Source: a virus. From it: a stretch of 40,515 nt of DNA. The stretch lies in IMG/VR virus record IMGVR_UViG_3300045885_000053, positions 1 through 40,515 of that record. One strand, given 5' to 3'. Under the pieces are notes generated by a model. That model made no database searches, was not told the origin of the DNA, and saw nothing but the letters and a program-made list of their open reading frames with translations. Positions 2,853 through 40,515 of the stretch are shown one piece after another. The translations under genes were made by a program, and so were the position numbers. How positions within the stretch are numbered: position 1 is the stretch's first letter; the number at the start of each line of letters is the position of its first letter.

Positions 2853-3236
2853 ATGGAAGAGAGCATCCTAAAAAGCACTAAGAAAATTCTTGGGCTTGAT
2901 GAAAGTTATACACCCTTCGATTTGGATGTGATCACGCATATAAACGCCACCTTCTCTGTTCTTGATCAGCTTGGCGTAGGCCCTGTAGGCGGATTCATGA
3001 TTGAAGATGAAACCGCAGTATGGAATGATTATGCTGTTCCGCCAAATCAGCTTCATACGGTCAAGACATATATTTACCTAAAGGTAAGGTCTCTCTTTGA
3101 TCCTCCGTCAACATCGTTCCTCATTGAAGCTGTCAATAATCAAATCAAAGAATATGAATGGAGGCTTAACGTCTTCCGTGAATGGGAGCTTGATCCGACA
3201 GATCCAATGCCGCCCGAAGAGGAGACAATTCCGTGA
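2853..3236 (+). CDS. Head-tail connector-like protein (gp6-like family)
   Basis: This 127-residue protein starts at ATG 2853 behind a perfect AAGGAGGTG. Signs of the family are the N-terminal KSTKKILGLDESYTPFDLDV segment, LDQLGVGP, VKTYIYLKVRSLFDPP (about 71-86) and EWRLNVFREWE near the end. The common Gram-positive phage connector proteins share this pattern and join the portal to the tail. It is unusual that the gene lies upstream of the large terminase and not after the capsid gene. The stop overlaps the next start (GTGA). Confidence 0.7.
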   Translation: MEESILKSTKKILGLDESYTPFDLDVITHINATFSVLDQLGVGPVGGFMIEDETAVWNDYAVPPNQLHTVKTYIYLKVRSLFDPPSTSFLIEAVNNQIKEYEWRLNVFREWELDPTDPMPPEEETIP

Positions 3237-3586
3237 ACGCCAACGTAGAGGAATTTATTAGTCATTACGGAAAAAAGGGTATGCGTTGGGGTCAACGGAA
3301 AGCTAGAAGTACTAATCGTACAGTATTTGGTAAACCTCCAACAAAATTGACATCGGCTGAACTTGATCGTCGAATAAAAAGAATGGAGATGGAGAAGCGT
3401 TATAATGAACTTAATAAACGTGATGTTTCGACTGGTCAACGACTAGCTGCAGAAATTTTGTCTAATTCTGGTCGAACGGTTGCTACAACAGTCCTTACTG
3501 GTGCTGCTATTCTTGGTGTTAGAGCTATAGCTAGGAAGAAGGGTGTTAGTTCTGAAGCTATTAATACTCTAACTAAGCGTAAATAA
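3233..3586 (+). CDS. HYG-motif protein of the head-gene region
   Basis: This 117-residue protein starts at GTG 3233, overlapping the upstream stop. Near its N-terminus it carries HYGKKGMRWGQRK (about residues 11-23), the HYGxKGMxWG motif found at the ends of many phage structural or virion-associated proteins. A basic helical middle (LDRRIKRMEMEKRYNELNKR) is followed by a hydrophobic helix (TVATTVLTGAAILGVRAIA, about 82-100) and a basic tail. Location between connector and terminase suggests a head-associated protein. The function of the motif is not established; a similar motif starts the RNA polymerase-like protein at 37511. Confidence 0.7.
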   Translation: MNANVEEFISHYGKKGMRWGQRKARSTNRTVFGKPPTKLTSAELDRRIKRMEMEKRYNELNKRDVSTGQRLAAEILSNSGRTVATTVLTGAAILGVRAIARKKGVSSEAINTLTKRK

Positions 3587-19222: not shown

Positions 19223-19545
19223 TGAGTAATAAAACGTATAACATTCTCTTTCCAACTTCGCAGGTTATTCTTCCAACAGCAGGATCGATATATTTCATTT
19301 TAGGTCTCTTTATCGGTCTTCCAAATGAAACCACAGTACTCGGCGTAATTCTTATAATTAACAGTATTCTAGGAATTATATTTCGAAAGCGTAATGGTCA
19401 TCATGATGGTAAAATCCTTGTGACGAAGACCGCCGATGGCAAAAAGATATTTACGTTAGAACTTGATGGCGATCCTGATGAAATCGAAGACAAAGACTCC
19501 ATATCCTTCAAGGTGGTTCCGCAAGACGATAGCCTCGCAGAATAG
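19222..19545 (+). CDS. Holin, r1t-like
   Basis: This 107-residue protein starts at ATG 19222 (TAATG overlap). It has two membrane segments (about 15-32, QVILPTAGSIYFILGLF, and 38-54, TVLGVILIINSILGIIF) separated by a short GLPN turn. A soluble C-terminal part contains KILVTKTADGKKIFTLELDGDPDEIEDKDSISFKV, a beta-strand tail seen in r1t-type holins of Gram-positive phages. It would open the membrane for the amidase endolysin, which lies 17 kb upstream, so lysis genes are split in this map. The first promoter-like element overlaps its 3' end. Confidence 0.75.
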   Translation: MSNKTYNILFPTSQVILPTAGSIYFILGLFIGLPNETTVLGVILIINSILGIIFRKRNGHHDGKILVTKTADGKKIFTLELDGDPDEIEDKDSISFKVVPQDDSLAE

Positions 19546-19565
19546 ACATCGATTATAGTGAGAAC
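19535..19565 (+). promoter_or_regulatory. Promoter-like element 1
   Basis: First of nine related elements: TCGCA at 19535-19539, ACAT at 19546-19549 and a TATAGT box at 19554-19559, then GAGAA. It lies inside the last codons of the holin gene and 22 bases before the start of the 19581 gene. It is the most diverged copy apart from number 9. Confidence 0.6.
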
Positions 19566-20075: not shown

Positions 20076-20107
20076 TTTCGCAATATAAACATCGCTTATA
20101 ATGGAAA
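20076..20107 (+). promoter_or_regulatory. Promoter-like element 2
   Basis: TTTCGCAA at 20076-20083, AAACAT at 20087-20092 and a perfect TATAAT at 20097-20102. It is 28 bases before ATG 20130 with an AAAGGATGAGGG ribosome site between. Confidence 0.7.
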
Positions 20108-20346: not shown

Positions 20347-20377
20347 AAAGGGAAGTGCAGCAATGCATTTCCTTTTT
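20347..20377 (+). terminator. Intrinsic terminator
   Basis: AAAGGGAAGTGC pairs with GCATTTCCTTT (12 pairs, three of them or fewer G-U) around loop AGCAAT, followed by TTTTT. The T-run merges into the TTTCGC of the next promoter-like element. Almost the same hairpin recurs at 20778-20807. Confidence 0.8.
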
Positions 20378-20406
20378 CGCAAAATTTACATGGTCTATAA
20401 TGAGAA
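20375..20406 (+). promoter_or_regulatory. Promoter-like element 3
   Basis: TTTCGCAAAA from 20375, TTTACAT at 20385-20391 and TATAAT at 20396-20401, then GAGAAG. The next about 150 bases have no good gene, so it may make a short RNA or feed the 20605 gene. Confidence 0.7.
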
Positions 20407-20551: not shown

Positions 20552-20583
20552 TTTCGCAATATTTACACGGCCTATAATGAGAG
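20552..20583 (+). promoter_or_regulatory. Promoter-like element 4
   Basis: TTTCGCAAT from 20552, TTTACAC at 20562-20568 and TATAAT at 20573-20578, then GAGAGAAC. It is 27 bases before ATG 20605. Confidence 0.7.
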
Positions 20584-21491: not shown

Positions 21492-21522
21492 TTCGCATTT
21501 TTTACATGACTTATAGTGAGAG
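21492..21522 (+). promoter_or_regulatory. Promoter-like element 5
   Basis: TTCGCA at 21492-21497, TTTACAT at 21501-21507 and TATAGT at 21512-21517, then GAGAGA. The expected start of RNA is near 21523-21526. Confidence 0.65.
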
Positions 21523-21730: not shown

Positions 21731-21763
21731 TTTCGCAACTTTTACAAGGCTTATAGTGAGAGG
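21731..21763 (+). promoter_or_regulatory. Promoter-like element 6
   Basis: TTTCGCAACT at 21731-21740, TTTACAA at 21741-21747 and TATAGT at 21752-21757, then GAGAGG. It drives a leader of about 80 bases before the 21843 gene. Confidence 0.65.
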
Positions 21764-21842: not shown

Positions 21843-22226
21843 ATGACCATTAAAGAGCATATTAAAAATCATAAAGAAGCTTACATTATTGGAGCTCTTT
21901 CATTCGCAGGAATTACAACGCTTATAATGAGAGGCGTTGCCAAACAACATATCGGTACTGGAATTTCCGTGACCGCCGGCCGTAGCAATAACATTGTAGT
22001 GGCCGCAGATAGGAGTGTTGTTCACAACGTTTCTTATATTTTATCTCGTAGAAAAGGTTCACCTTCATGGGTTGTTCGATGCATTGAAACTGGAGAAATT
22101 TTTTCATCACAACGTAAAGCAGCCTTTTCTATGGGAATTCATGAAAATGAACTTTCACAGCATCTTCGAGGATTGAAAGCAAAAGCTGGAAGTAATACTT
22201 TTGAACGAATTTGCATGGCGGCATAA
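21843..22226 (+). CDS. Membrane-anchored protein with a NUMOD1-like DNA-binding motif
   Basis: This 127-residue protein starts at ATG 21843 behind AATAGGAGAAAAC. One membrane segment lies at about 12-29 (EAYIIGALSFAGITTLIM). The C-terminal part, about 78-112, reads VRCIETGEIFSSQRKAAFSMGIHENELSQHL, which fits the NUMOD1 pattern of a short strand and a helix-turn-helix, known from homing endonucleases. Here there is no nuclease domain. A membrane-tethered DNA-binding protein is the direct reading; its role is unknown. Confidence 0.65.
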   Translation: MTIKEHIKNHKEAYIIGALSFAGITTLIMRGVAKQHIGTGISVTAGRSNNIVVAADRSVVHNVSYILSRRKGSPSWVVRCIETGEIFSSQRKAAFSMGIHENELSQHLRGLKAKAGSNTFERICMAA

Positions 22227-22235
22227 GGAGGGATA

Positions 22236-22379
22236 ATGGGAAACAACTACTATATTCAGCAGACCCCGCCTAAGCATTACGGGTTCTTTAATTTCATTGG
22301 GGATGTCTTCATGACCTTCCTTACATGCGGACTTTGGCTTATTTGGATCTTCGTGAGGGAGATGCGTCACCAGCGATGA
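22236..22379 (+). CDS. Tiny one-pass membrane protein
   Basis: This 47-residue protein starts at ATG 22236 behind TAAGGAGGG. MGNNYYIQQTPPKHYGFFNF is followed by a membrane segment (about 21-40, IGDVFMTFLTCGLWLIWIFV) and ends REMRHQR. Short proteins of this pattern with a final WLIWIFV-like helix are common in actinophages. The stop overlaps the next start (ATGA), so the two are coupled. Confidence 0.7.
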   Translation: MGNNYYIQQTPPKHYGFFNFIGDVFMTFLTCGLWLIWIFVREMRHQR

Positions 22380-23101
22380 ATAAACTCAACGAGCTCTTCA
22401 ATAAGGCGGTAATCGGCGCTAAGGCTAATTCACCTGTTATATTCGCAGGGATCAGTATCGTGGGTCTAATTACGACTTCATATTTGTCTGCACGAGGTGC
22501 TATTAATGCGACTAGAGAGCTTGATGGGAAAACTCTCGAACGTAAAGAAGAACTTAAGGTTTGGGGAAAGCATCTGGCTCCGGCAGGCATTTCAGGAGCT
22601 GTCACAATCGGATGCATTATTGGAATCACTCGATCAGGAAGTCGAAAGACGGTTGCCGCTCAAGCCGCTCTCGCTGTCACTGAGCGAGCGTACTCTGAGT
22701 ATCGAGATAAAGTCATTGAGGAGTTTGGTGCTCGTAAGGATCAGTCCATTCGAGATAAAGTGGCGGAAGAACGACTAAAGAAAGATCCGCCGCCTCCTCA
22801 AGAGATATTGGTGACTGGCACAGGAAGCATCTTATGCTGTGAAACATTCACTATGCGATATTTTGTAAGTGATATGGAGAAGTTGCGTAGAGCTATGAAT
22901 GATCTCAACGCAAGACTTCTGAGACATGATTATGCTACATTGGATGATTTCTATTATTCAGTTGGCTTGGATAGAACATCATATTCTGGTCAATTAGGAT
23001 GGAAATCGGATAAATTGCTGGAATTGGAGTTTTCTACGGCGTTAACACCGGATAATCGTCCATGTATCACGTTTACGTACAATTATACAACAAATTTGTA
23101 G
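22376..23101 (+). CDS. Two-pass membrane protein, DUF6353-like
   Basis: This 241-residue protein starts at ATG 22376, overlapping the previous stop; the frame is open further upstream but this start is coupled and gives MNKLNELFNK. Membrane segments lie at about 20-38 and 68-86. A helical part with AYSEYRDKVIEEFGARKDQ follows, then FTMRYFVSDMEKLRRAMNDLNARLLRHDYATLDDFYYSVGL and LGWKSDKLLELEFST. The soluble end resembles what I recall as DUF6353. A longer relative lies at 24423. Function unknown. Confidence 0.65.
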   Translation: MNKLNELFNKAVIGAKANSPVIFAGISIVGLITTSYLSARGAINATRELDGKTLERKEELKVWGKHLAPAGISGAVTIGCIIGITRSGSRKTVAAQAALAVTERAYSEYRDKVIEEFGARKDQSIRDKVAEERLKKDPPPPQEILVTGTGSILCCETFTMRYFVSDMEKLRRAMNDLNARLLRHDYATLDDFYYSVGLDRTSYSGQLGWKSDKLLELEFSTALTPDNRPCITFTYNYTTNL

Positions 23102-23104
23102 GTG

Positions 23105-23136
23105 TTCGCAAAAATTACATAGCCTATAATGAGAGA
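23105..23136 (+). promoter_or_regulatory. Promoter-like element 7
   Basis: TTCGCAAAAA from 23105, ATTACAT at 23114-23120 and TATAAT at 23125-23130, then GAGAGAC. It is 26 bases before ATG 23156. Confidence 0.7.
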
Positions 23137-24422: not shown

Positions 24423-25331
24423 ATGCTATCGACCTCAAGACTTATGAAGTATGTTCCTAATTCGGTGATTAGGGGCGTTAGCAGACAGGTTCTTGTCGCT
24501 AAGAAGAATTCACCGCACATTTTCTTTGGGCTCGGACTCGTGGGAACTATTGCGGGGACAGTTCTTGCGTGTCGTGCAACTTTGAAATTGTCAGAAACGC
24601 TCGACGATATTCAGAAGGATTTGGATTCAGTTAAGAAGAAAAATCAAATTCTTCCACAAGGAAATTTGTTTGGGACGTATAATGAAGATTGGTATCTTGA
24701 TTCTGTCCAGGTATACATCAAATCTGGACTGAAAATTATGCGTCTGTATGGCCCTTCTATCGTCGTTAGCGGCGTTTCTATCGGATTACTCACCAATTCC
24801 CACATTGAGCTTTCTCGTCGAAATACGGCCCTTATGGCGGCCTATGCGACCGTTCAGAAGGCATATGAGGACTATCGAGAGCGTGTTAGAGAGGCTTTGG
24901 GTGAAGAGAAAGAGCTCGAGCTCTATCGTGGTATCGAAACGAAGAAAATCGTCGGAGAAGATGGTACTGCGATTGAGATTAAAACGGCTGACCCTAATAA
25001 ATATTCTCAATACGCCAAATTCTTCGATGAGTATTCAGAGTTTTGGAAGAAAGATCCAGAATTGAATCGGATCTTTGTTCAGTGTCAGCAGAATTATGCA
25101 AATAATTTGCTTCATGCCAGAGGCCATGTATTTCTGAATGAAGTTTATGATATGCTTGGAATCGAACGGTCAAGCGCAGGCCAAGTTGTTGGCTGGCTTC
25201 GACACAGTGACGGAGATAACTATGTTAGTTTTGGAATCTTCGAGGCGTTCAATTCTGCATTTGTAAACGGAAATGAACGGAGCATCCTTCTAGATTTCAA
25301 TGTCGATGGAGTCATTTGGGACAAAATCTAG
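24423..25331 (+). CDS. Two-pass membrane protein related to the 22376 protein
   Basis: This 302-residue protein starts at ATG 24423 behind TTGGAGG. It shares with the 22376 protein the order KxNSPxIF followed by a membrane segment (31-50), a second one (about 108-124), a helix KAYEDYRERVREALGEEKE and a C-terminal fold with FLNEVYDMLGIERSSAGQVVGWL. It carries a longer loop between the membrane segments. Probably an old duplication. Both may form a membrane complex with the 25340 protein; this is inferred from adjacency. Confidence 0.65.
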   Translation: MLSTSRLMKYVPNSVIRGVSRQVLVAKKNSPHIFFGLGLVGTIAGTVLACRATLKLSETLDDIQKDLDSVKKKNQILPQGNLFGTYNEDWYLDSVQVYIKSGLKIMRLYGPSIVVSGVSIGLLTNSHIELSRRNTALMAAYATVQKAYEDYRERVREALGEEKELELYRGIETKKIVGEDGTAIEIKTADPNKYSQYAKFFDEYSEFWKKDPELNRIFVQCQQNYANNLLHARGHVFLNEVYDMLGIERSSAGQVVGWLRHSDGDNYVSFGIFEAFNSAFVNGNERSILLDFNVDGVIWDKI

Positions 25332-32120: not shown

Positions 32121-32150
32121 TTCGCAAAATTTACATCGCATATAATGAAG
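32121..32150 (+). promoter_or_regulatory. Promoter-like element 8
   Basis: TTCGCAAAAT at 32121-32130, TTACAT at 32131-32136 and a perfect TATAAT at 32141-32146, then GAAGG. A leader of about 75 bases follows before ATG 32228; the transcript could continue through the structured non-coding stretch at 32411-32747. Confidence 0.7.
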
Positions 32151-33354: not shown

Positions 33355-33532
33355 GATGACGTTTCATATTCCGCCAGGAGATTATAGATGGTCTTGGGAG
33401 GGAGCACGTTCTCTTATAGATCAACGCGTTCCTATTAATAATGTCCCATACCTTGTTACTGCAGTTAAAGTTACCTCTGATGGCGGAGTAGATATTACTG
33501 TGGAACGTATACAGGTGAATGATGCCGGCTAA
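33347..33532 (+). CDS. Cassette gene A, small protein of unknown function
   Basis: This 61-residue protein has a start at ATG 33347, overlapping the previous stop (ATG 33356 is an alternative). MDKMTFHIPPGDYRWSWEGARSL, VPYLVTAVKVTSDGGVDITVERI suggests a small beta fold. Its last codons overlap the start of the truncated frame at 33522. Confidence 0.55.
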   Translation: MDKMTFHIPPGDYRWSWEGARSLIDQRVPINNVPYLVTAVKVTSDGGVDITVERIQVNDAG

Positions 33533-33584
33533 TCGTAATGATGGTAAAGTTAATCTCCATATTGTCTGGTTCATGTATGGATGA
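33522..33584 (+). pseudogene. Chimeric remnant: start of the ribbon-helix-helix gene joined to the end of the 32986 gene
   Basis: This frame of 20 codons begins MPANRNDGKVNLH, identical to the first 13 residues of the 33758 gene, and ends VWFMYG plus stop, identical to the last residues of the 32986 gene. It is the junction scar between the two cassettes and is unlikely to code a working protein. Confidence 0.8.
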
Positions 33585-33768
33585 GCCGCTGTTAGGCCTA
33601 GCCACTATCGAGCAACTTATGCGAGAATTGATTGTTCGGTTTACAGTGCATTATCCGCATGACAGCATATCACAAATGAAATCAATTGAACGAGCATTAG
33701 CCCTATCTGAAATGCTTGGCGGGTTGGATGCTCCTATTCGAGAATATAGGACGGTTGATGCCGGCTAA
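33577..33768 (+). CDS. Cassette gene B, small helical protein of unknown function
   Basis: This 63-residue protein has a start at ATG 33577 in the repeated flank, in the same relative place as the start of gene A. Sequence is helical (GLATIEQLMRELIVRFT, ISQMKSIERALALSEML). It ends TVDAG, overlapping the next start. It bears no likeness to gene A, so the two look like alternative genes for one locus. Confidence 0.55.
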   Translation: MDEPLLGLATIEQLMRELIVRFTVHYPHDSISQMKSIERALALSEMLGGLDAPIREYRTVDAG

Positions 33769-33964
33769 TCGTAATGATGGTAAAGTTAATCTTCATCTGC
33801 GCATCCCATCTGAATTAATGGATCGTCTTACCAAGGAGGCTGACGATCGCGTTGTTTCCACCAATCTACTGGCCGTAAAAGCGCTTGAGCAATATCTTGA
33901 TCGCTTAGTGCCTGTAGAAGAGATACTACTACTCAAGGAGAAAATCTATGGCCCCGATTCTTGA
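33758..33964 (+). CDS. Ribbon-helix-helix (Arc/MetJ-like) DNA-binding protein
   Basis: This 68-residue protein starts at ATG 33758; the frame is open further upstream but this start matches the duplicated copy at 33522. KVNLHLRIPSELMDRLTKEADDRVVSTNLLAVKALEQYLDRL (about 9-50) fits a ribbon-helix-helix: beta strand then two helices. Such proteins act as dimers that bind operators. It is the only clear transcription-repressor type protein in the window. It overlaps the next gene by 17 bases. Confidence 0.65.
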   Translation: MPANRNDGKVNLHLRIPSELMDRLTKEADDRVVSTNLLAVKALEQYLDRLVPVEEILLLKEKIYGPDS

Positions 33965-36613: not shown

Positions 36614-36641
36614 GTCTCGCAAACATCGCATATAATGAAAG
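36614..36641 (+). promoter_or_regulatory. Promoter-like element 9 (shortened)
   Basis: TCTCGCA at 36615-36621, ACAT at 36623-36626 and a perfect TATAAT at 36631-36636, then GAAAGGAG. About six bases between the TCGCA and ACAT blocks are missing compared with the other copies. Confidence 0.55.
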
Positions 36642-36678
36642 GAGACACAGAATATCCTTTTATAGCTGTGAGGCAACT

Positions 36679-36975
36679 ATGAATGAAACCCAGTACCAGG
36701 GAAAACTCATTAAAAAATTGCGAAATCTTTTCCCAGGTTGCGTTATTTTAAAGAATGATCCTACCTGGATACAGGGTATACCAGATATTCTAATTTTGTT
36801 TCTTAATACCTGGGCTATGTTAGAAGTTAAGATGAACGATGATTCTAGTATTCAACCTAATCAAGAGTATTATATTGATTTACTTGATGAGATGTCGTTC
36901 GCCTCCTTTATTCGCCCAGAAAATGAGGAGGAAGTGTTGTATGCTCTTCAACAATCATTCGGACTTATCAGGTAA
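36679..36975 (+). CDS. VRR-NUC-like PD-(D/E)XK nuclease
   Basis: This 98-residue protein starts at ATG 36679 behind TGTGAGG. The pattern E3-x-Q..KLIKKLRNLFPGCVILKNDPTWIQGIPD36ILIL..WAMLE49-V-K51 gives the catalytic PD...E-x-K set and the early Glu/Gln of the VRR-NUC family. Relatives are Holliday-junction or flap nucleases of phages. It overlaps the next nuclease gene by 35 bases. Confidence 0.75.
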   Translation: MNETQYQGKLIKKLRNLFPGCVILKNDPTWIQGIPDILILFLNTWAMLEVKMNDDSSIQPNQEYYIDLLDEMSFASFIRPENEEEVLYALQQSFGLIR

Positions 36976-37501
36976 ACATGCTTTCCTTAGCCCAAGTAAT
37001 TATCATTGGCTTAATTATACAGATCAAAAATTAGAAGCTAGATTCATAGCTGCTATGGCTGCTCGTCGCGGTAGCGATTTACATGCTCTTGCTCATGAAG
37101 CTATTCGTTTGGGCGTTAAACTTTCTAGAGCTAACAAAGCGTTATCGACTTATGTTAATGATGCTATAAGTTATAAAATGTCATGTGAACAGATATTGTT
37201 TTATTCCGAAAATTGTTTTGGTACTGCAGATACTATTTGCTTCCGAAGGAATAAACTCAGGATTCATGATTTGAAAACTGGTATTATTCAAACGTCTGAA
37301 CATCAACTAGAAGTTTATGCAGCGTTGTTTTGCCTTGAGTATGGGGTTGATCCATTTGATATTGATGTTGAGCTTCGTATTTATCAAAGAGAAACAATAA
37401 GAGTCTTTGAACCGTATTCGGAAAGTCTTTTAATCATCATGGATAAAATCGTCGATTTTGATAAACAAATTGAAGAGATGAAAGCATCCGATAGATTCTA
37501 A
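36941..37501 (+). CDS. RecB/Cas4-like PD-(D/E)XK exonuclease
   Basis: This 186-residue protein starts at ATG 36941 behind GAGGAGGAAG; the frame is open upstream but only as a shadow of the previous gene. Motifs: GSDLH48 (RecB-family His), GTAD97, IHD110-L-K112-TG and Q122-x3-Y126. This is the complete nuclease signature of the RecB/Cas4/lambda-exonuclease-like group. Likely role in end processing for recombination with the SF2 helicase. No Cys cluster of true Cas4 is seen, and there is no CRISPR array in the window. Confidence 0.8.
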   Translation: MLFNNHSDLSGKHAFLSPSNYHWLNYTDQKLEARFIAAMAARRGSDLHALAHEAIRLGVKLSRANKALSTYVNDAISYKMSCEQILFYSENCFGTADTICFRRNKLRIHDLKTGIIQTSEHQLEVYAALFCLEYGVDPFDIDVELRIYQRETIRVFEPYSESLLIIMDKIVDFDKQIEEMKASDRF

Positions 37502-37510
37502 GGGGGTGTT

Positions 37511-40156
37511 GTGATCATCATCGACGAAGAAGATTATTTGGCGCATTATGGTATTCTGCGTCGATCTGGCCGTTACCCATGGGGATCGGGAGAAGACGAA
37601 AATACTCGTAATCGAATTTTTATGCAAGAAGTTAAGCGGCTTCGTAATGAAGGATTGACTGATACTGAAATTGCTCGAGGATTTAATTGTAGTACGACTG
37701 AGCTTCGAGCTGATATTTCTTATGCTAAAAATGCTAACAGGCAAGCCGATATCGCTATGGCTCAACGTTTGAAGGAAAAGGGTTATTCTACAAATGCCAT
37801 AGCTAAAAGAATGAATATTCCTGAATCAACAGCAAGAAATCTCCTCAAACCAGGAGAAGCAGATAAGGCAGATGTTCTTCAAGCAACTGCTAATATGCTT
37901 AAATCGCAGGTTGATGAAAAAGGGTTTGTTGATGTAGGTAAGGGTGTAGAGAATTATGTTGGTGTAAGTGCCACTCGTCTTGAAACTGCTGTAGGAATGC
38001 TTCGTGCAGAAGGTTATGAATTGCACGAAGTTAAAGTAACACAGCTTGGCACTGGTCATGAAACAAGAATGAAAGTTCTTGCTCCGCCAGGAACTACTCA
38101 GAAAGAAGTATGGCTTAATCGAGACAAAATTCAACAAATTACTGGTTATTCTGATGATGGTGGTAGGCATTATGCAAAAATTCATACCCCGTTACCAATC
38201 GACCCGAAACGTCTCGACATTCGTTATGCTGAGGATGGCGGTAGCCAAGCTGACGGAGTTGTGTTTGTCCGTCCTGGAGTTTCTGATATTTCTTTGGGTG
38301 GCGCTAAATATGCTCAAGTTCGTATTCAAATTGGAGATGGCCATTATATTAAAGGGATGGCAATTTATAAAGATGATCTTCCTGATGGAGTAGATCTTCA
38401 ATTTAATACAAATAAATCCAATACAGGTAAGAAGACTGATGCTCTAAAAGAATTGAGTGATGATCCTTCTTTACCATTTGGTTCAATTGTTCGCCAAATT
38501 GTTGAGAATCCAGGTACATCTAAAGAGCGGGTAACTTCCGCTATGAATATTGTAAATGATGAAGGTACTTGGGAAACATGGTCTCGTACTTTGTCTTCGC
38601 AGATGTTGTCTAAGCAGAGCCCGGCTCTTGCTAAGTCTCAGCTTGATATGACATATGATCGTAGACAAAGAGAGTATGATGACATTAATAATCTCACAAA
38701 CCAAACAGTTCGTAAAAGACTTCTTAATGATTTTGCTGATAGTACTGATTCTGCTTCTGTTCATTTGAAGGCAGCTGCACTTCCTGGGCAATCGGTTAAA
38801 GTTATTCTTCCGATTAAATCTATGTCGCCTACTGAAGTTTATGCGCCTGATTATGAGAATGGAGACAGAGTTGTTTTAATTCGTCATCCTCATGGTGGAA
38901 CGTTTGAAATACCAGAACTTATTGTTAATAACAGGCAGCATGAGGCAAGGCGTCTTTTAGGAAATGCTAGAGATGCCATTGGTATTCATCATACTGTTGC
39001 CGCAAGATTGTCAGGCGCCGACTTTGATGGTGACACAGTTCTAGTAATTCCAAATAGACAGGGTCGAATTAAAACTTCTCCTGCTCTTGAAGCTCTTAAG
39101 GGATTTGATCCTCGGTCATCATACCCAGGTTATGAAGGTATGAAGCCGATGAAGAATACCCAAACAGAGATGGGTAAGATTTCTAATCTTATTACAGACA
39201 TGACTATTCAAGGCGCAAGTCATGATGAGATTGCCCGTGCCGTAAAACATTCAATGGTAGTTATTGATGCTGAGAAACACAATCTTAATTATAGACTTTC
39301 TTATAATGATAATAATATTAAAGCACTTAAAGAAAAGTATCAACGACAACCGGGTGGTGGTACAGGCGCAGCCACTTTAATTTCTAGGGCTAAGTCTGAA
39401 TTGAGGATACCTCAAAGAGTCCCCCGTCCTCAAACAGAAGGGGGTCCTGTAGATAAGGCAACAGGGGCTAAGGTATTTAAAGAAACTGGGAAGCGACATT
39501 GGAAGTCGGGCGCTCTCCTTACTCAAAGAACAACCCGTCTTGCTGAAGCTACTGATGCGCATACCCTTTCCTCAGGTACACCTATGGAAAGATTGTATGC
39601 TGATCATTCTAATAAGCTTAAGTCATTGGCTAACCAGGCGCGTCTTAATGCTTTAAATACCCCCCCTTCTAAATGGTCACCCTCTGCTAAGAAGACTTAT
39701 GCTAATGAAGTAGACTCTCTTGATTCTAAGCTGGCCATAGCTAAAAAGAACGCCCCTCTTGAACGGCAAGCACAACTAATTGCTAACAGTATTGTTAGAA
39801 CTAAAAGAGATTACAATCCAAACATGGATAAAGAAACCAGAAAGAAGATAGAATACCAAGCCCTTGAGGAAGCGCGTGTTCGTACTGGTGCTGGTAAGCA
39901 GAGGATTACTATTACTAATAGAGAATGGGATGCCATACAAGCTGGTGCTATTAGTGATTCAAAGCTCACCGAGATTCTTAACCACGCCGACATGCATGTT
40001 GTTAGAGAGCTGGCCACTCCTAAGAGTTCTATTCTTATGACCAGCCCAATGACTAATAGGGCTAATGCTATGCTAGCAGCTGGATACACAAGAGCTGAAG
40101 TTGCAGCACAACTTGGTGTTTCATTGAGTACTTTAGATGAAGCAACAGTTGGATGA
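37511..40156 (+). CDS. Single-chain two-barrel RNA polymerase-like protein (DFDGD) with HYG motif
   Basis: This 881-residue protein starts at GTG 37511 behind AAGGGGGTG. At residues 12-25 it has HYGILRRSGRYPWG, related to the HYGxKGMxWG motif of phage structural proteins. Two helix-turn-helix-like stretches follow (about 43-72 and 84-111), and a third closes the protein (about 851-876). The core shows the two signatures of two-barrel RNA polymerases: a KGM segment (K281) in the first barrel region, and RHPHGGTFEIPEL then AIGIHHTVAARLSGADFDGD with the metal-binding D504-F-D506-G-D508. It aligns with the beta-prime subunit pattern AIxLHxxV...ADFDGD. Size is close to the YonO group. Enzyme activity is inferred. 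Confidence 0.8.
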   Translation: MIIIDEEDYLAHYGILRRSGRYPWGSGEDENTRNRIFMQEVKRLRNEGLTDTEIARGFNCSTTELRADISYAKNANRQADIAMAQRLKEKGYSTNAIAKRMNIPESTARNLLKPGEADKADVLQATANMLKSQVDEKGFVDVGKGVENYVGVSATRLETAVGMLRAEGYELHEVKVTQLGTGHETRMKVLAPPGTTQKEVWLNRDKIQQITGYSDDGGRHYAKIHTPLPIDPKRLDIRYAEDGGSQADGVVFVRPGVSDISLGGAKYAQVRIQIGDGHYIKGMAIYKDDLPDGVDLQFNTNKSNTGKKTDALKELSDDPSLPFGSIVRQIVENPGTSKERVTSAMNIVNDEGTWETWSRTLSSQMLSKQSPALAKSQLDMTYDRRQREYDDINNLTNQTVRKRLLNDFADSTDSASVHLKAAALPGQSVKVILPIKSMSPTEVYAPDYENGDRVVLIRHPHGGTFEIPELIVNNRQHEARRLLGNARDAIGIHHTVAARLSGADFDGDTVLVIPNRQGRIKTSPALEALKGFDPRSSYPGYEGMKPMKNTQTEMGKISNLITDMTIQGASHDEIARAVKHSMVVIDAEKHNLNYRLSYNDNNIKALKEKYQRQPGGGTGAATLISRAKSELRIPQRVPRPQTEGGPVDKATGAKVFKETGKRHWKSGALLTQRTTRLAEATDAHTLSSGTPMERLYADHSNKLKSLANQARLNALNTPPSKWSPSAKKTYANEVDSLDSKLAIAKKNAPLERQAQLIANSIVRTKRDYNPNMDKETRKKIEYQALEEARVRTGAGKQRITITNREWDAIQAGAISDSKLTEILNHADMHVVRELATPKSSILMTSPMTNRANAMLAAGYTRAEVAAQLGVSLSTLDEATVG

Positions 40157-40169
40157 AAGGAGAAAGTTA

Positions 40170-40415
40170 ATGATTAAAACTATGCTCACTACTATTGATA
40201 ACCCACACTCTCCTTTCGATGACTTTCCAGCATGGTATGCGTATGATGTTTCATCAGGCCACCATACTTCTTCTTTTCTTGCCCGCATTCTCCAAGACTC
40301 AGATCAATTATCAGAATTTGATATTGAAGTTGCGATAGAGGAAGCAATCGATGAGATTGTAAAAGAAAATGTATCTGGCATGTATAAGAAAGTTACGAAA
40401 GAGTTTCCAGATTGA
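40170..40415 (+). CDS. Small conserved protein linked to the RNA polymerase-like gene
   Basis: This 81-residue protein starts at ATG 40170 behind GAAAGGAGAAAG, 13 bases after the polymerase-like gene. MIKTMLTTIDNPHSPFDDFPAWYAYD, GHHTSSFLARI and DIEVAIEEAIDEIVKENVSGMYKKV are conserved in Gram-positive phages, and I recall it near genes of this type. Function unknown; an acidic partner or regulator of the polymerase-like protein is possible. Confidence 0.65.
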   Translation: MIKTMLTTIDNPHSPFDDFPAWYAYDVSSGHHTSSFLARILQDSDQLSEFDIEVAIEEAIDEIVKENVSGMYKKVTKEFPD

Positions 40416-40515
40416 AATAAAAATTTTAATAATAATTTTTAAATTTATTTTTAAATCTGGAGATCTCAGTTCAAAGGGGAGGGGGGCCTTCGCAAGAACT
40501 ACCCCCCCTATGCAT
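40416..40515 (+). other. Non-coding right edge: AT-rich tract, palindrome and G-run/C-run inverted repeat
   Basis: 40416-40455 is almost only A and T. GAGATCTC at 40459-40466 is a perfect palindrome. A G-rich run (about 40476-40486) and a run of seven C (40502-40508) could pair around CCTTCGCAAGAACTA, but no T-run follows. It may be a terminator, a packaging-related site or the leader of the next gene. Confidence 0.4.

Follow-up and report, generated by a model that had tools for sequence, protein, structure and literature searches.

Among the relatives of cellular RNA polymerase, the single-chain enzymes of the two-barrel class are the simplest, and how they find their promoters is an open question. 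YonO of phage SP-beta is a proven DNA-dependent RNA polymerase that transcribes the late genes of its phage; its promoter sequence and its need for further factors were left to be determined (PMC5467207). P23-45 gp64 transcribes early and some middle genes (PMC10770324). Here we consider a gene for a polymerase of this class in a 40.5-kb virus record (40,515 nucleotides, taken whole and called the window below), which belongs to a siphophage with terminase, portal, capsid-protease, tape measure and primase-polymerase fusion genes. The new part appears to be the likely promoter of this polymerase family rather than the protein, namely a 29-bp element of rigid spacing, TCGCA-N6-ACA-N5-TATAATGAGA. 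We consider it likely that the window enzyme is a DNA-dependent RNA polymerase that would use some ten copies of this element to start transcription of the early and middle genes and of its own operon.

The polymerase gene, its family and its surroundings

The gene (37511-40156, plus strand) starts with GTG and encodes a protein of 881 aa. The phrog_4291 profile matches it over residues 4-878 with E = 0 and 1278 bits, essentially full length, so the protein is a member of the already recorded family PHROG 4291 and is not itself new. By tblastn the family comprises 250 phage records, with hosts that are chiefly Arthrobacter, Gordonia, Streptomyces and Lactococcus, and most of these records are named either 'helix-turn-helix DNA-binding domain protein' or 'RNA-dependent RNA polymerase', the latter being the label of the PHROG as well. 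The annotations make no mention of a promoter, of roles for the helix-turn-helix (HTH) domains or of the N-terminal tag considered below, and we found no biochemistry of the family in the literature consulted. RosaAsantewaa gp54, Cheesy gp100, Untouchable gp92 and the 'putative RNA polymerase' of FP_oengus are full-length homologues that occupy the same genome place, after VRR-Nuc and exonuclease genes, and from these members the window protein has no essential difference.

In an alignment of 33 sequences, in which the homologues share 44-76% identity with the window protein, all three aspartates (D504, D506 and D508) of the DFDGD motif at residues 504-508 (39020-39034, plus strand) and K281 of the K-G-M triplet at residues 281-283 (38351-38359, plus strand) are invariant, 33 of 33; K313 is likewise invariant and K302 is conserved in 32 of the 33. 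DFDGD is preceded on its N-terminal side by IHHTVAARLSGA. DFDGD and KGM had been picked out beforehand as an RNA polymerase signature, and the alignment confirms them. A weak hhalign match to P23-45 gp64, which covers only the segment up to the DxDGD of that enzyme (E 0.0034), fits DFDGD as the catalytic metal motif. The active site would then consist of a beta-prime-like barrel with D504, D506 and D508 and a beta-like double-psi barrel, in which Lys281 is expected to lie, and catalysis itself is what we infer from this arrangement.

The structure comparison that had been suggested for the protein was carried out with an AlphaFold model built on the 33 sequences (mean pLDDT 81.7). Foldseek against the PDB gave QDE-1 (E 6e-9), P74-26 gp62 (7.5e-7) and maize RDR2 (1e-6) as top matches, all at probability 1.00, with cellular beta-prime chains and crAss-like gp66 lower, at about 1e-2 (gp66 E 8e-3); RlpA-type proteins in a viral structure library gave weak short matches. 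Because the modelled fold matches QDE-1, P74-26 gp62 and RDR2, which brings it into the double-psi barrel class, the product of the ORF is, as judged from the model, a single-chain RNA polymerase of the two-barrel class, as originally proposed. Overall TM-scores against the solved folds are low (~0.3), which is expected if the domains are oriented differently, so that the class is clear and the domain arrangement less so. The class is visible by fold search only, since searches of solved-structure sequences, with the single sequence and with the profile, gave no polymerase above noise (beta-prime E 1.6). The link to the YonO group that had been drawn at the outset went undetected by sequence: hhalign of the 33-sequence profile against YonO, a weak test with its single YonO sequence, left the catalytic core unmatched and returned a match in the HTH region alone (E 0.043), and the nearest folds are QDE-1 and P74-26 gp62.

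The three HTH stretches described at the two ends of the protein are real. Two N-terminal units (about residues 36-68 and 79-113; 37616-37849, plus strand) are supported by Pfam, the PHROG profile and the model, and a C-terminal unit (about residues 845-876; 40043-40138, plus strand) by Pfam and the model. In Pfam, HTH_7 matches with three stretches, HTH_23 and HTH_38 match at 83-113 and HTH_7 at 849-875, and the runs of short helices in the model at 33-67, 79-111 and 845-880 agree with these placements.

The polymerase gene is preceded in its operon by a VRR-Nuc-like nuclease gene (36679-36975) and a Cas4/RecB-like exonuclease gene (36839-37501, with a listed start that may be too early), both on the plus strand. 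A small conserved ORF of phrog_4303 (40137-40415, plus strand) follows and overlaps the polymerase stop by 20 nt; it adjoins the polymerase in all six genomes compared, and its product is possibly a partner of the enzyme. Beyond it, a cos-like element (40476-40515) consists of a G-tract, a TCTCGCAAAA loop, a C-tract and TGCATCGCC, and recurs at five further loci (L007, L342, L344, L010 and L030). In relatives that are complete and linear it marks the right end, and it has the letters TCGCA in common with the promoter-like element. A second promoter family for late genes, considered at this position, was rejected: what follows the polymerase operon is this genome end with its inverted G and C tracts, and it holds no copy of the motif.

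A promoter-like element in the early and middle regions

A repeat search of the window returned a family of intergenic copies, nine of which score 29-39 bits, as compared with a best score of 16.5 bits in 20 dinucleotide shuffles. These nine sites, located by repeat search and motif score, are at 19535-19563, 20078-20106, 20377-20405, 20554-20582 (TCGCAATATTTACACGGCCTATAATGAGA), 21493-21521, 21733-21761, 21904-21932, 23106-23134 and 32122-32150, all on the plus strand. A tenth, variant copy (36617-36642, plus strand) stands before the VRR-Nuc/exonuclease/polymerase operon; it keeps ACA-N5-TATAATGAAAGG, with ACA-N5-TATAATG intact, and has its TCGCA 5 nt closer. All copies in the window are on the coding strand of the early/middle region, and most sites lie 17-85 nt upstream of a ribosome-binding site plus start codon. 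A copy directly before the polymerase operon is present in Cheesy, AddiRose, RosaAsantewaa and FP_oengus as well as in the window, which suggests self-activation. Separately from this family, the window contains a 41-bp direct repeat, 98% identical, at 33520-33560 and 33756-33796, 236 bp apart.

From 547 sites in related contigs we derived the consensus TCGCA-rrWWWW-ACA-nGsCY-TATAATGAGA, with conservation continuing through GAGA. This set was partly collected by the pattern itself, and the spacing was therefore rechecked on loci chosen by their polymerase; there, TCGCA stands exactly 19 nt before TATARTGARR in 70 of the 80 TCGCA occurrences upstream of it, and ACA stands 8 nt before it at 99 of 146 sites. 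Six genomes together hold 55 element sites in their early/middle regions, with none in the late region and none on the minus strand. Of 18 polymerase-bearing records, 16 have the element, and a reversed-pattern control gave 0 matches there; of 24 more distant records, 18 have it, and the control gave 2. This strand-specific, early-region motif accompanies the polymerase across several host phyla, in phages of Arthrobacter, Gordonia, Curtobacterium and Streptomyces and, partly, of Lactococcus. In Lactococcus phage P162, which has a Firmicutes host and an enzyme 40% identical to that of the window, the core ACA-N5-TATAATGARA is kept and TCGCA is absent. The eleven sites of P162 (L009) have near-identical cores (TTTTACATACCCTATAATGAAAGGATATAGG). 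FP_oengus has few clear copies, and the polymerase-bearing contigs G084 (L314 and L315) and G076 (L306-L308) have no clear ones, so that their promoter may have diverged or the enzyme may be used in another way. The promoter class given to G076 in a tree was an assumption and carries no weight here. In the regions of YonO and P23-45 we saw no convincing copy.

The association also holds when approached from the motif. Among 46 viral records tested after being fished by motif alone, 30 gave a polymerase match, one of which (E 2.4e-4) is too weak and was treated as a non-carrier, and 39 gave a match to the DNA polymerase of the lineage. The nine motif-bearing contigs without the polymerase that we inspected are all fragments of the same lineage that end before the place of the polymerase, and none of them is a complete motif-bearing phage lacking the enzyme.

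Which protein reads the element

We propose that the element is probably a promoter read by this polymerase, a reading drawn from sequence comparison. The HTH domains that flank the catalytic core would probably help to read the upstream TCGCA/ACA part, although this pairing of domains with parts of the element, like the choice of this enzyme over another phage protein as the reader, is our interpretation. The suggestion that the enzyme recognizes promoters without a sigma factor is thereby supported indirectly, since a conserved element resembling a promoter goes along with the enzyme, while its accompanying idea that the N-terminal HYG motif contributes is not.

Let us consider, however, that the element might be a phage-specific kind of host promoter (sigma-70/sigma-A), with the phage polymerase serving other genes, for example late ones. 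The hexamer in the window clade is TATAAT, a perfect sigma-70 -10 element; the polymerase gene and the late genes are neighbours across the genome ends; and service of late genes has its precedent in YonO with the SP-beta late genes (PMC5467207).

Against this, the hexamer varies among clades. Searches with the hexamer masked, in which only repeated hexamers were counted because such searches also give background matches, found mostly TTAAAT in RosaAsantewaa, TTTTAT, TATTAT or CTTTAT in contigs G073 and G078, and CTTAAT in contig G082. Sigma-70 promoters need an A at -11, and in several clades most of the repeated sites lack this A. No -35 element is found at the usual 16-18 bp, its part being taken by the rigidly spaced upstream TCGCA, and the window clade has the -10 part of a sigma-70 promoter alone. 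Strong conservation extends past the hexamer through ATGAGA, and the element pattern is about as frequent in host genomes as chance predicts, with 6 stretches in 257 Gb of bacterial and archaeal sequence compared with some four expected by our own estimate. Because clades swap TATAAT for TTAAAT, TTTTAT or CTTAAT, the host sigma factor seems a poor candidate for the reader, and we regard a host promoter as an unlikely explanation.

Since motif and polymerase share one phage lineage, their co-occurrence alone leaves some other conserved phage protein as a possible reader; an activator, a repressor or the phrog_4303 protein might bind the element, which host or phage polymerase would then use. 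A few other proteins are indeed common to all six genomes compared, including phrog_4303, phrog_4079 and DUF6353 proteins. Those of the shared proteins that were scanned with Pfam, however, gave no DNA-binding domain, whereas the polymerase has three HTH units, and the element is laid out as a core promoter, ending near the start codon. We find this explanation less probable again than a host promoter. Two paralogous DUF6353 (phrog_2152) proteins are encoded in the early region of the window (22325-23101 and 24423-25331) and are conserved across the lineage.

A function as RNA-dependent RNA polymerase or QDE-1-like silencing enzyme, as the PHROG label would have it, we consider very improbable: the nearest solved folds to the protein are indeed QDE-1 and RDR2, but QDE-1 too uses DNA templates according to PDB titles, the weak Pfam RdRP match (PF05183, E 0.011) reaches 14.9 bits against a curated cut-off of 23.8, and for a phage of double-stranded DNA in which a promoter-like element is repeated, transcription from DNA is the better fit.

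The HYG tag and comparison with known polymerases

If the polymerase starts the early genes by reading its own promoter, a first source of the enzyme is needed, either the virion or an initial transcript read by the host. The N-terminal segment LAHYGILRRSGRYPWGSG (residues 10-27; 37538-37591, plus strand) is near-invariant, with HYG (12-14) and SGRYPWGSG conserved in 30-31 of the 33 sequences. HYG had been put forward as a DNA-binding or promoter-recognizing feature, a role that finds no support; the segment comes out disordered in the model and is similar to a tag on proteins of the head/packaging module. A related tag (HYGKKGMRWGQRK) is carried by the protein encoded just upstream of terminase (3233-3586, plus strand), and of 42 occurrences of the pattern H[HY]G.KG[MQ][KR]WG in 22 genomes, 37 are no more than 7 kb away from terminase, portal or capsid genes. 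The tag is possibly a head address signal, and from the clustering of tags near head genes the polymerase may, therefore, be packaged in the virion. As a separate observation, the short form H[HY]G.KG[MQ][KR]WG.R[RK] occurs on many different proteins around terminase, portal and capsid (also at L346, L307 and L341, among others), with up to seven in a single genome (G076). Literature on the tag, on motif-bearing phages and on virion proteomics of 1706-type phages held nothing that settles the packaging or the promoter question. We tentatively suggest, as a scenario with appreciably less than an even chance, that the head-carried enzyme, addressed by its HYG tag, enters the cell together with the DNA and begins early transcription unaided at TCGCA/ACA/TATAATGAGA, its own HTH domains reading the upstream part. 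Cellular RNA polymerase would then have a relative that consists of one protein and works without sigma at a defined promoter.

The family is large and occurs in culturable Arthrobacter, Gordonia, Streptomyces and Lactococcus phages; together with a precise candidate promoter, its clade variants and candidate DNA-reading domains in one chain, this makes the proposal directly testable, and P162 is a good isolate for promoter work in a laboratory host. If the proposal is correct, enzyme and element would make a new orthogonal transcription pair, and some 250 phage annotations would be corrected.

Among described enzymes, QDE-1, the Neurospora RNAi polymerase, and plant RDR2 share the two-barrel fold and are the best structural matches to the window protein, but they are only ~11-13% identical to it and are eukaryotic silencing enzymes with another lifestyle. 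The crAss-like phage phi14:2 gp66 (fold E 8e-3) is also a single-chain two-barrel phage enzyme and is packaged in the virion; it is, however, far more distant and has 2166 aa. The non-virion RNA polymerases P74-26 gp62 and P23-45 gp64 are likewise single-chain phage enzymes of the two-barrel class, yet they are shorter (592-616 aa compared to 881 aa) and their sequence match to the window enzyme is significant nowhere beyond the catalytic segment. YonO is of the same single-chain class and of similar size (839 aa compared to 881 aa), but it differs in transcribing late genes and in a catalytic core without detectable sequence match to the window enzyme.
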